The notes beneath the pieces are model-generated. The model made no database searches. It saw nothing but the letters and a program-made list of their open reading frames with translations, and was not told where the DNA came from. A DNA stretch of 64,000 bases from Paludibacter propionicigenes WB4 (lineage in GTDB: Bacteria > Bacteroidota > Bacteroidia > Bacteroidales > Paludibacteraceae): NCBI RefSeq assembly GCF_000183135.1, contig NC_014734.1:3286001-3350000 (forward strand), read 5' to 3'. The position numbers were made by a program, and so were the translations under genes. Of the stretch, positions 1 through 4,283 are shown piece by piece; within the stretch, counting starts at the first letter, position 1; the number at the start of each line of letters is the position of its first letter.

Positions 1-219
1 CTTAACTTCTACTTGCTCGAATATGGCAAAACTCAGGTCGTCCTCAAGTTGGATGTCGAGAAAAATCAAATCGGGGTGTTCATTTTGAGTAAGCCATATT
101 ACAGATTCTTTGACCGATTGTAGTTTAGCCACTACCTGTATGTTGCTGTCACATGCGTAGAGCAGGTTTTCGAGTCTGCGTGCTGCAAACTCCTCATCTT
201 CAATAATAATTGTTCTCAT
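1..219 (-). CDS. Response regulator, receiver domain, LytR-like (partial at window edge)
   Basis: Only the first 73 codons are inside the window. They form the first half of a CheY-like receiver: acidic pocket E7-D8-E9 and phospho-acceptor D55 in the segment LIFLDIQLEDD. The ATG at 217-219 overlaps the TGA of the upstream receiver gene in an ATGA junction, which points to translational coupling. About 50 of the 73 visible residues are identical to that neighbour, so the two genes are tandem duplicates. The output domain lies outside the window. A LytTR DNA-binding domain is likely because the kinase upstream is of the LytS type, but that is inference. Confidence 0.85.
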   Translation of the reverse strand, partial: MRTIIIEDEEFAARRLENLLYACDSNIQVVAKLQSVKESVIWLTQNEHPDLIFLDIQLEDDLSFAIFEQVEVK

Positions 220-632
220 AGATGGGTAGCATTAGTTATTTCGTTGAAAATATGAGCATCGACAGGTTTCTCGTTTGTGGGTTTATTTCTGTATTTCTCA
301 ATCATATTCACTAAGTCAGCTTGCGTAATTGGCTTGAGCATGAAGTCAATTCCCTTAAGCTGAAATGCTCGGGTGGCGAGTTCGTCGGTTGCAGTAGTGA
401 AAACGATAGCACAACTTATGGGAACTTCCTGAAAAATAGCGAAACTTAAATCATCTTCCAGATGAATGTCCAAAAATATAAGGTCAGGGTGCTCGTTGTT
501 TTTAAACCAATCTATTGACTCTTTTACCGACTCCAGTTTGGCAACCACCTCTATCGTTGAATCATATTCATTTATCATATTCTTGAGTCTGCGGGCTGCA
601 AACTCTTCATCTTCAATAATTACTATCTTCAT
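216..632 (-). CDS. Stand-alone response regulator receiver domain, LytR/AgrA-like
   Basis: A 138-residue protein that is essentially a receiver domain. The acidic pocket is E7-D8-E9, the phospho-acceptor D55, the conserved Thr about T79-T80 and the conserved Lys K100 before Pro. After the receiver there are only about 35 residues, too few for the LytTR DNA-binding domain that normally completes this family. It may therefore act as a phosphate sink or relay, or dimerise with the coupled downstream receiver. It sits 33 bp downstream of the multi-PAS histidine kinase and ends in a four-base overlap with the next receiver, so all three look like one operon. Likely partner: the LytS-type kinase at 666-3602 (inference from position). 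Confidence 0.88.
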   Translation of the reverse strand: MKIVIIEDEEFAARRLKNMINEYDSTIEVVAKLESVKESIDWFKNNEHPDLIFLDIHLEDDLSFAIFQEVPISCAIVFTTATDELATRAFQLKGIDFMLKPITQADLVNMIEKYRNKPTNEKPVDAHIFNEITNATHL

Positions 633-665: not shown

Positions 666-3602
666 TTATTCACAAACCAGCGGGACTTTTGCCACAAAGT
701 GTTTATCGGTTTTAGCAAATGTGGGTATGGTATTATTCAGTAGTTTGTATCTGTTTTCTATATTTTTTAGCCCAACACCTGTCGATACCAGTTGCGATGG
801 TCTTTCTTGCAAGTTGTTGATAATGTTCAGATTATTGTCAAAGTCAATAAATATGTCTATGATCAGCGGTTCTGCTTTTGACATGGTATTGTGCTTGATC
901 GCATTTTCAATCAGAAGTTGCATGGCAAGCGGAATAATACGGTCGTTCCGACGTTCTTCCGAGATATTGATGTTTACTCTGAGTTTATCAATAAATCGAA
1001 TATTCAGCAAGAAAATGTAAGCATCAAGGAAGTTTAGCTCAGTCTGTAAATCAACCAGTTCGTTGTCCTTGTTTTCAAGCACATAGCGATATACTTTCGA
1101 TAGTTGTTCCGAGAATTTTTCGGCCAGATCGGGTTCCAGTTTGATAAGTGAAGTCAGCACGTTGAGGCTGTTGAACAGAAAGTGTGGATTAACCTGCTGC
1201 TTAAGTACGTCGTATTGCGATTGCAGGTTTTCTTTTTGGAGGTTAATTAATTGGGTGCGGGCTTCCGTAAGGCGTTTTGAGCTTTCTTTTACCCGTTTTT
1301 CCAGCTGGCTGTTCAGCTTTTCGAGTTCTGTTTTGGCGTGTTGTAACTCGTGTTCAATTTTCAATCGCTCTGTAATATCGCGTATCACTATAAAACCGGC
1401 CGGAGAACCATTGTAGTTGGAAGTGCGGGCATTAAGCTCGACGGTTATCATTTTTTTATCTTTCCGAATAAATTTGCTTCTGAGAATGTTGCTGAACTGT
1501 TCGCCTTTCATGCGTCGGTTGTGAAATTCAGCAAGTATTTCATGATCTTTGTTGTCGATATATTTCAGAAAGGGCTTTTCTTTAAGTTCGTCGAGCGAAT
1601 ATCTCATGATGTCGCACATGGTCTGATTGGCAAATTTCAGAAAGCCATCTTGTACAATAACAATTCCATCTGTAGCATTCTCTATCAATGTGCGGTATTT
1701 TTCTTCGCTTTCTTCAAGCTGTTTCTGCATGAGTCTTGTCTGGGTCAAATCATGTACTGTAATATAACTTACTGTTTGTCCATTGAGCTCCAATACTGAA
1801 GAGTAAACATCAGCGTCAATTTCTGTCCCTTTTTTCGTTCTGAATTTGAACAGGTCATTAAGCGTTTCTTTGTTGCCGCTCTTCCGAAGTTGGTTCACTC
1901 TTTTGGCTTTTTCTACATCTTCGTTGGCAATCAGTTTTACCGCTTCTAATGTATAAAGTTCTTCTAAGGTATATCCCAGCATGTTGCAAAAGGTGTTATT
2001 TGCAAATAATATATCATTGTCAACAACGATAATAATTCCATCCTGCGAGTTTTCTATTAGTGCTTTGTATTTCTCTTCGCTTTCGCGCAAGGTAATTTCC
2101 AACGCTTTCCGTTCGGATATATCAACGAAAATACCTCTTGAGCCGGTAACTGTTCCGTTTTCAATAATGGTTGTTCCGTAGATAATTACCGGAATCTCTG
2201 TTCCATCGGGGCGGCAAATAGTATATTCTACAGGCGGAGATACAATGGGTTCCAGCTTCCCATTATGTTCTTTGGTGCGTCTTGACTCTTCCGAGAGTTT
2301 TGATATCATTACTTCTCGATCAGCCGGTTTAAAATAAGAGAAAGCGGGTCGACAGTCGAAATCGGGTTTTTCCAGCCCTATCAGTTTCAGTCCTGTCTGG
2401 TTCATATAGGTAGGTATTCCGTTCACATCCAGTTCGTAAACGGCTAGTGGCAGCATTTCGGCCAATTCGTGATATCTTAATTCGCTTCTGTACAGCTCAT
2501 TTTGTATGCGTTTATTCTCTGTAGTATCCTGTATGGAGAAAAAACCGGCTTTATCTCCCTGAAAATCGATGATGGATGCTGTAATCTCGCATTCACTCAC
2601 TTTTCCCGATTTTCCTACCAGCCGGATAGATTCATTGATGGTGACATTGTTTTTAAACCGTCGTTCGTCCCCTATGTATTTGGCTTTATAATGATCCTGT
2701 GGATGTATTATTTCAATTGGGGATGTAGCGTGTAGCTCTTTAACAGAGAAATCCAGCATTTTACCTATCGTGTTGTTGGCGAAAAGTATTTTATTCTCGC
2801 GGATAATCAGAATTCCATCCTGCGAATTTTCTACTAAGGTTTTATACTTCTCCTCACTTTCACGCAAGGCATTCTCCATTGTTTTACGTTCAGAAATGTC
2901 AATGATGATTCCCCTGAATCCAATTACTTTATTATTTCCGTAAATATAGTTAAGGTATATGAGTACCGGAAATTCAGATCCATCTTCGCATTTTGCAGTG
3001 TATTCTACCGGAATAGCTACCGGTTCCTGCTCGGCAATAAAATCCATGCTCTTTAGTCGTTCAATTTCAAGCTTGAGATTTTCTCTTACTAAAATACTGT
3101 CGGAGTTAGAAAAAAATGACATAGCCGACGGATTTGTATCTAATCTTGCATCAAAATTAAACAGTTTTTTTCCAGCGTGATTGATATATTTTATATGTCC
3201 TCCCAAATCCAGCTCATATACTCCAATGGGGAGCATCTCCGTTAGTTCGCGATATTTTTGCTCGCTTTTTTTTAGCTCCTGTTCAAAACGGTTGTGTTCG
3301 GTAACATCGTGAATGGTATAGAATGCAGCCCAGTCACCTTCGAACGGTATCATGGTAGAAGTAGCCTCACATTCTTTTATTTCTCCATTGTGTGCAATTA
3401 GTCTCAATGTTTCGTGTATCGTGGATGTGTCACCGCTTCTTCGTAGCTCATTGATAGCAACTATTTTATATCTGTCATCGGGGTGTACTATATCGCCTTG
3501 ATGCTCTGTGAGGCAGTAACCCATCATATTGCAAATCGTATCGTTAGCGTACAGCACTTTGAAATTGCGAATAATCATGATCCCATCATGTGAATTTTCC
3601 AC
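666..3602 (-). CDS. Multi-PAS sensor histidine kinase, LytS type (3' part of a frameshifted gene)
   Basis: This 978-codon frame opens at a GTG in the middle of a PAS domain, so its apparent start is not the real one. It carries about six PAS domains in an alternating order (types A-B-A-B-A-A, roughly residues 1-750). A coiled-coil linker follows, then a His_kinase (LytS/YpdA) domain with H807 in QQVNPHFLFN, and a HATPase domain with the N box LLIENAIKHN near 900 and a glycine box STGVGLKN near 940. No transmembrane segment is visible, so it is probably a cytoplasmic sensor that phosphorylates the downstream receivers. The missing N-terminus is the gene at 3644-4162, from which it is separated by a one-base frameshift at an A7 run. 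Joined, the protein would be about 1,165 residues with seven PAS domains. Confidence 0.85.
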   Translation of the reverse strand: MENSHDGIMIIRNFKVLYANDTICNMMGYCLTEHQGDIVHPDDRYKIVAINELRRSGDTSTIHETLRLIAHNGEIKECEATSTMIPFEGDWAAFYTIHDVTEHNRFEQELKKSEQKYRELTEMLPIGVYELDLGGHIKYINHAGKKLFNFDARLDTNPSAMSFFSNSDSILVRENLKLEIERLKSMDFIAEQEPVAIPVEYTAKCEDGSEFPVLIYLNYIYGNNKVIGFRGIIIDISERKTMENALRESEEKYKTLVENSQDGILIIRENKILFANNTIGKMLDFSVKELHATSPIEIIHPQDHYKAKYIGDERRFKNNVTINESIRLVGKSGKVSECEITASIIDFQGDKAGFFSIQDTTENKRIQNELYRSELRYHELAEMLPLAVYELDVNGIPTYMNQTGLKLIGLEKPDFDCRPAFSYFKPADREVMISKLSEESRRTKEHNGKLEPIVSPPVEYTICRPDGTEIPVIIYGTTIIENGTVTGSRGIFVDISERKALEITLRESEEKYKALIENSQDGIIIVVDNDILFANNTFCNMLGYTLEELYTLEAVKLIANEDVEKAKRVNQLRKSGNKETLNDLFKFRTKKGTEIDADVYSSVLELNGQTVSYITVHDLTQTRLMQKQLEESEEKYRTLIENATDGIVIVQDGFLKFANQTMCDIMRYSLDELKEKPFLKYIDNKDHEILAEFHNRRMKGEQFSNILRSKFIRKDKKMITVELNARTSNYNGSPAGFIVIRDITERLKIEHELQHAKTELEKLNSQLEKRVKESSKRLTEARTQLINLQKENLQSQYDVLKQQVNPHFLFNSLNVLTSLIKLEPDLAEKFSEQLSKVYRYVLENKDNELVDLQTELNFLDAYIFLLNIRFIDKLRVNINISEERRNDRIIPLAMQLLIENAIKHNTMSKAEPLIIDIFIDFDNNLNIINNLQERPSQLVSTGVGLKNIENRYKLLNNTIPTFAKTDKHFVAKVPLVCE

Positions 3603-3643
3603 CAGCGTTTTGTATTTTCCTTCACTTTCGCGAAGGTCAGACT

Positions 3644-4162
3644 CTATTTTTTTCTGTCGGAAACATCCTGCTGAATGATGATATAACCTTCCAGATTTCC
3701 GTTGTCATCTTTAAAAGGTGATGATACGGTGGTAGCCCAGTAGGTAGAGCCATCTTTTTTGTAGGTTTGCATTTCGCCTTCCCATTTCTCGCCGGCTATC
3801 ATGCTTTTTACAATTTCCTCGCGCGGCTCGGTATAATCAGTCTGGGAAAAGATCTCGGTAACAGATTTACCAATTAATTCGGCTTTCGAAAATCCGGATA
3901 ATTTTTCGTAGCCAGGATTAACATATTCAAAGCAGAAATTTGTGTCAAGAATGAATATGGCACCCGGCGTTTGTTCAAATACCAATCGAAGCTTTTTAAG
4001 TTCTTTGATTTCAAGGGCTAAATTATCTTTGTCGCTTTCAGTGCTTTTGTTTTTTACCAATTCTAGATTAGAATTTCGGACAAAAGCTGTAGTTTTAAAC
4101 AAAGAAAGTATTTGCTGTTTAAGCTTGCCGGAACCTGTTTTTCTGTTGTTGGTGTTATCCAT
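3644..4162 (-). CDS. N-terminal PAS fragment of the same sensor kinase
   Basis: A 172-codon frame starting at the ATG 4160-4162. Residues 1-55 form a basic, then charged, leader. A PAS/PAC domain follows (about 58-172), ending in the typical PAC sequence IIQQDVSDRKK immediately before a TAG. A one-base shift backwards at the A7 run just before this stop continues without a break into IESDLRESEGKYKTL, the usual inter-PAS linker, and then into the frame starting at 3602. This is therefore almost certainly the 5' end of one kinase gene, split by a real mutation, by programmed slippage, or by a homopolymer sequencing error. A Bacteroidetes -7 box lies 24 bp upstream of the start. Confidence 0.8.
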   Translation of the reverse strand: MDNTNNRKTGSGKLKQQILSLFKTTAFVRNSNLELVKNKSTESDKDNLALEIKELKKLRLVFEQTPGAIFILDTNFCFEYVNPGYEKLSGFSKAELIGKSVTEIFSQTDYTEPREEIVKSMIAGEKWEGEMQTYKKDGSTYWATTVSSPFKDDNGNLEGYIIIQQDVSDRKK

Positions 4163-4186
4163 ACTATTATGTTGGTTGTTAGCTTA

Positions 4187-4194
4187 CAAAGATA
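4187..4194 (-). promoter_or_regulatory. Candidate -7 box for the multi-PAS kinase operon
   Basis: Read on the minus strand this is TATCTTTG, a match to the Bacteroidetes -7 consensus TAnnTTTG, 24 bp upstream of the ATG at 4162. No clear TTTG -33 element is visible. Confidence 0.55.
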
Positions 4195-4283
4195 TAATAA
4201 ACTTCATTTGCAGCAATCTGTTTATGATTGAATCCTGCGTTTTGAGTAATGAGCGGCTTATTTTATGAGCTGAATGTTGCTCA

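Follow-up and report, generated by a model that had tools for sequence, protein, structure and literature searches.

A stop codon after an A7 run splits a multi-PAS sensor kinase gene of Paludibacter propionicigenes WB4 and is most likely a single-genome lesion

Paludibacter propionicigenes WB4 is a soil bacterium. On the minus strand of the 64,000-nucleotide stretch of its genome analysed here ("the window"), a gene for a multi-PAS sensor histidine kinase is broken by a stop codon that directly follows a run of seven A's. Is this a site of programmed -1 frameshifting, as the title of the original prediction proposed, or one of the other options listed there, namely a phase-variable tract, a mutation or a sequencing error?

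The minus strand from 3658 to 3644 reads GAC AGA AAA AAA TAG, as predicted, with exactly seven A's and the upstream context ...GTT TCC GAC AGA AAA AAA TAG AGT.... The parts of the split gene are as follows.

3644 to 4162, minus strand: 5' part of the broken kinase gene, an open frame of 172 codons with a leader and one PAS domain (Pfam PAS_9, 8.8e-22, residues 68-169), ending AAA AAA TAG; the N-terminus of the orthologs aligns here
3647 to 3653, minus strand: run of seven A's (A AAA AAA as the first frame reads it) at which the frame changes; the ortholog L039/L062 has A8 here
3644 to 3646, minus strand: TAG that closes the first frame; read at -1 it falls within ATA GAG
666 to 3646, minus strand: 3' piece, read in the -1 frame, carrying six PAS domains and a His_kinase domain of the LytS type (open frame, Pfam, motifs)

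Translated through the A's in the -1 frame, the sequence gives ...QQDVSDRKK-IESDLRESEGKYKTLVENS..., a normal inter-PAS linker, and the protein at the junction is DRKK-IESDLRESEGKYK. The first usable start in the -1 frame is a GTG at 3602, 42 nt past the TAG stop, from which 978 codons run to 666. A -1 shift therefore joins the 172-codon frame to the 978-codon frame through the linker, and the product would be the seven-PAS kinase that had been claimed, since Pfam finds a single PAS domain in the 5' piece, and in the 3' piece six PAS_9 stretches and a His_kinase domain (PF06580, 4.2e-22). The kinase motifs of the 3' piece are intact (H-box NPHFLFN, N-box ENAIKHN within LLIENAIKHN, and GVGL), and the kinase piece of this ~3.5-kb gene shows no other sign of decay. 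With its kinase motifs intact, the lesion is recent, leaky or erroneous.

Ahead of the gene, TATCTTTG at 4182-4194 (minus strand), some 30 nt upstream of the gene's ATG (4162), is similar to the -7 promoter element of Bacteroidota, TAnnTTTG. This suggests that the kinase gene may start its own transcript. Directly downstream of the kinase, the same locus carries a response regulator.

216 to 632, minus strand: REC-only response regulator downstream of the kinase (Pfam Response_reg, 1.9e-13)

The PF06580 domain of the kinase and the Response_reg domain of its neighbour together make up the pairing of a LytS-type kinase with an adjacent regulator, and in five relatives (L029, L030, L031, L033 and L039) the kinase also has a similar regulator frame close by. 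The REC-only regulator has 138 amino acids, which leaves no room for an output domain. It is the first of two similar tandem regulators that follow the kinase, and it overlaps the second, a longer 257-codon frame (positions 3458-4231 of locus L034, minus strand), by ATGA. The relatives inspected have a single regulator each, and the tandem pair looks like a partial duplication of the regulator gene.

To establish the state of the gene in relatives, 358 genomes of the family and a named collection were searched for orthologs. An alignment query recovered those orthologs that carry organism names; the single window protein run against the genome contigs gave no match. Six of the 358 family genomes match the 5' piece strongly, and the named collection adds one more (L063). 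All seven orthologs, from seven related species, carry the same N-terminal PAS domain (52-65% identity) in a single uninterrupted frame of 620-1132 codons.

G005/L029/L059: one frame, 1036 codons
G002/L031/L060: one frame, 997 codons
G025/L030/L061: one frame, 856 codons
G011/L032/L064: one frame, 901 codons, ended by the contig edge
G031/L033: one frame, 754 codons
G302/L039/L062, Paludibacter sp. Bin2_4 (a MAG): one frame, 620 codons
L063: one frame, 1132 codons

The N-terminal PAS aligns across the orthologs without a break, and the kinase H-box is present in those examined for it. The only TAA noted in G025 lies upstream of its open frame. The number of PAS domains varies by species, and frame length ranges from 620 to 1132 codons in L029-L033, L039 and L063, yet the first PAS and the kinase end are kept; this spread suggests that PAS repeats may be frequently gained and lost by recombination.

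Because all orthologs carry both pieces as one frame, the two pieces belong together and did not come to lie side by side by chance. It would also be possible to read the locus as two genuine genes, a short PAS protein followed by a kinase whose translation begins, through coupling, at a start of its own. The GTG 42 nt past the stop would allow this; however, that start lies inside the second PAS domain and would remove its beginning, and no ortholog has two frames. We consider this reading so improbable that it carries almost no weight.

At the site itself, the codons in six of the orthologs are (i) GAC AGG AAG AAA ATG GAA, (ii) GAT AAA AAA AGA GTA GAA, (iii) GAC CGG AAG CAA ATG GAG, (iv) GAA AAA AGA CGC ATG CAA, (v) GAC CGG AAA AAG ATG GAA and (vi) GAT CGC AAA GCC ATT GAA. 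Paludibacter sp. Bin2_4 has GAC AGA AAA AAA ATG GAA, that is, A8 in frame with no stop and one A more than the window. A7-TAG is absent from the site in all seven, most of which have no long A run there. The ancestral state is thus one frame, with A7-TAG private to WB4 among the genomes searched. The comparison with sister strains had been proposed as a way to tell the options apart: the A8 found in one relative speaks for mutation or phase variation, and the conserved A7-TAG that would have spoken for programmed frameshifting occurs nowhere. With seven intact frames and A7-TAG in no ortholog, the title claim of programmed -1 frameshifting is left without support, and of the listed options it is mutation (or sequencing error) that gains, at the expense of both programmed frameshifting and a maintained phase-variable tract.

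An indel found in one genome, in a gene that is intact in its relatives, is what a frameshift mutation or pseudogene (or a sequencing error) looks like. Our preferred reading, with a probability of roughly 0.6, is that the kinase gene was broken by the loss of a single base in an A8 run. Its observed basis is the one frame in seven orthologs and the A8 at the same site in one of them. The ancestral gene for a multi-PAS LytS-type sensor histidine kinase would have been a single reading frame, and the A8 run that lies in the linker behind the first PAS would have lost one A, probably by strand slippage during replication. The resulting A7 would bring TAG into frame, so that the main product would be a 172-residue fragment with a single PAS domain. 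The kinase part would then be made at a low level only, through occasional slippage on A7 or by an internal restart, for example at the GTG at 3602. Three points are our inference: that the strain truly carries the deletion, the way in which it arose, and that little kinase leaks through. The absence of further decay fits a recent lesion, but it fits equally a sequencing error or a gene that is rescued.

Could the strain instead have A8 and an intact kinase gene, with one A dropped from the finished sequence? Reads of the 454 type miscall homopolymers, and short reads cope well with A7 and A8 runs. The WB4 genome (3,685,504 bases in one contig, 99.99% complete) was assembled from 454 and Illumina reads, with 337.6x Illumina coverage and Illumina-based base correction (PMC3072083). 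The assembly thus began from reads prone to this kind of miscall. The stated error rate of less than 1 in 100,000 allows up to ~37 errors genome-wide, a number comparable to the 34 pseudogenes reported (PMC3072083). The 3.5-kb gene without other decay also fits an error, and the authors of GeneTack anticipate that singletons validated by BLAST are errors and not mutations (PMC3711429). Against an error stand the depth of the Illumina data used for base correction, to which a choice between A7 and A8 poses little difficulty, and the behaviour of comparable runs elsewhere in the genome.

For the latter we sampled 444 kb (the window and 19 further regions of 20 kb each). The 288 kb of long open frames in this sample contain 95 A and 36 T runs of at least 7, about 131 in total and all intact, including 18 A8 and one A9. 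Within the kinase gene itself there are three A7 runs (at 3653, 3171 and 1457), an A8 and a T7. Runs of A7 and A8 are common across the long frames of this genome, and the A7 heptamer is ordinary here. Mechanical flagging of the sample gave 44 same-strand frame changes, of which the seven that looked most like split genes were read and judged by eye; these were adjacent genes, artefacts of start regions or probably non-coding. In many of the other flagged changes an ATG coincides with the stop or lies close to it, but several lack one. A second gene split at a homopolymer was not confirmed among the seven of 44 flagged changes read in the 444 kb, which is not an exhaustive census. Since no other split was confirmed and about 131 runs are intact, homopolymer miscalls are not common here, and a single miscall is still possible. 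Mutation and sequencing error are only partly separable, and an error is possible but doubtful; we do not favour it over the deletion. The deletion is favoured because the orthologs are uninterrupted, A7-TAG occurs in one genome, the genome paper lists 34 pseudogenes and deep polishing with Illumina reads, and miscalls are uncommon. The A7-stop is thus most likely a lesion of a single genome and would best be read as an A8-to-A7 deletion.

The finding of A8 in one species and A7 in this one at the same site could also mean that the tract alternates between A7 and A8 within the population, turning the kinase on and off. At this site, though, the majority of orthologs lack a run, so this is not a tract kept across relatives; a length of A8 is nothing unusual in this genome, and no relative was found with a second, switched-off copy. 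Phase variation by a maintained tract thus lacks support, and we regard switching of this kind as very unlikely.

A further alternative is adventitious or lineage-specific recoding, in which -1 ribosomal slippage on A AAA AAA, perhaps aided by a hairpin, or the addition of an A by RNA polymerase would yield some full kinase in addition to the short PAS protein. Where the two frames overlap, a heptamer of the form X XXY YYZ does lie in the 0 frame, AG[A AAA AAA] TAG. Without stimulators, the A_AA.A_AA.A heptamer shows low but measurable frameshifting in E. coli (>0.10%), and it is one of the usual heptamers of IS1 and IS3 elements (PMC4066793). The kinase part is intact, and a candidate stimulator lies downstream.

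3619 to 3636, minus strand: 7-bp hairpin CCTTCGC-GAAA-GTGAAGG with a GAAA tetraloop, 10 nt past the A7 (MFE -10.4 kcal/mol); a possible stimulator, not conserved

That a local hairpin lies near where a frameshift stimulator would be counts against a simple deletion. Within that distance, a hairpin at least as stable was found at 8 of 1279 sampled coding positions (top 0.6%), and the hairpin is the most stable among 29 linkers of the 'LRESE' type in this and related genes, unmatched in the 28 others. Linkers of the LRESE type tend to fold into a smaller core, CGC-GAAA-GYG, and the hairpin may thus come partly from the coding sequence. Moreover, it starts at 10 nt, beyond the 5-8 nt past the heptamer at which stimulators usually start (PMC4066793), the fold of the wider 79-nt region is unremarkable (z = -1.46), and the hairpin test was post hoc.

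The arrangement occurs in no ortholog: a conserved frame change with a slippery site was looked for in the homologs and is absent from the seven uninterrupted orthologs. Nor is there the conserved A or T run of ~8-9 or more expected of programmed transcriptional slippage, the site being A7 only and not conserved. Longer runs give more transcriptional slippage, which is usually taken into account from lengths of about 8-9 (PMC1088944, PMC3711429), selection against slippage is often evident at a run length of 9 (PMC1088944), and the rescue of tssM uses A11 (PMC4256274). It is plausible that the site leaks to some degree, possibly by a few percent, but no feature marks the A7 site as evolved for recoding, which we consider an unlikely explanation of the locus. 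In a more specific and highly speculative form, a recoding site of this lineage alone would have been born when an A8 run lost a base beside a chance hairpin; the lone PAS protein would then be made together with a little full seven-PAS kinase by -1 slippage, and selection would keep the kinase frame open.

If the split is a mutation or an error, its importance is chiefly one of annotation: the locus should be annotated as one frameshifted kinase gene, not as two genes. If a full kinase is made despite the stop, slippage would here be buffering a recent indel in a gene that belongs neither to an endosymbiont nor to a mobile element, and the locus could serve as a modest test case for how recoding sites arise.

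Several known systems share features with this site. In the -1 programmed frameshifting of IS1 and IS3 elements (PMC4066793) the same heptamer is used in the same phase, with a downstream hairpin and possible short and long products; the kinase site differs in that it is not conserved, does not belong to a mobile element and has its hairpin at 10 nt rather than 5-8. For transcriptional slippage the best parallel is tssM1 of Citrobacter rodentium (PMC4256274), where a stop also follows a poly-A run and slippage gives a short and a full product. There the run is A11 and frameshifting was measured at ~20%, whereas the kinase site has A7 and its stop abuts the run. The 'pseudo pseudogenes' (PMC1088944) likewise have a frame disrupted at an A run and restorable by slippage, but the A9/T9 runs studied there are longer. 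In the GeneTack survey (PMC3711429), singleton frameshifted genes and pseudogenes show the frame change in one genome, intact homologs and a poly-A run of at least 7 nearby. From these the kinase gene shows no notable difference, and its split belongs to this ordinary class.
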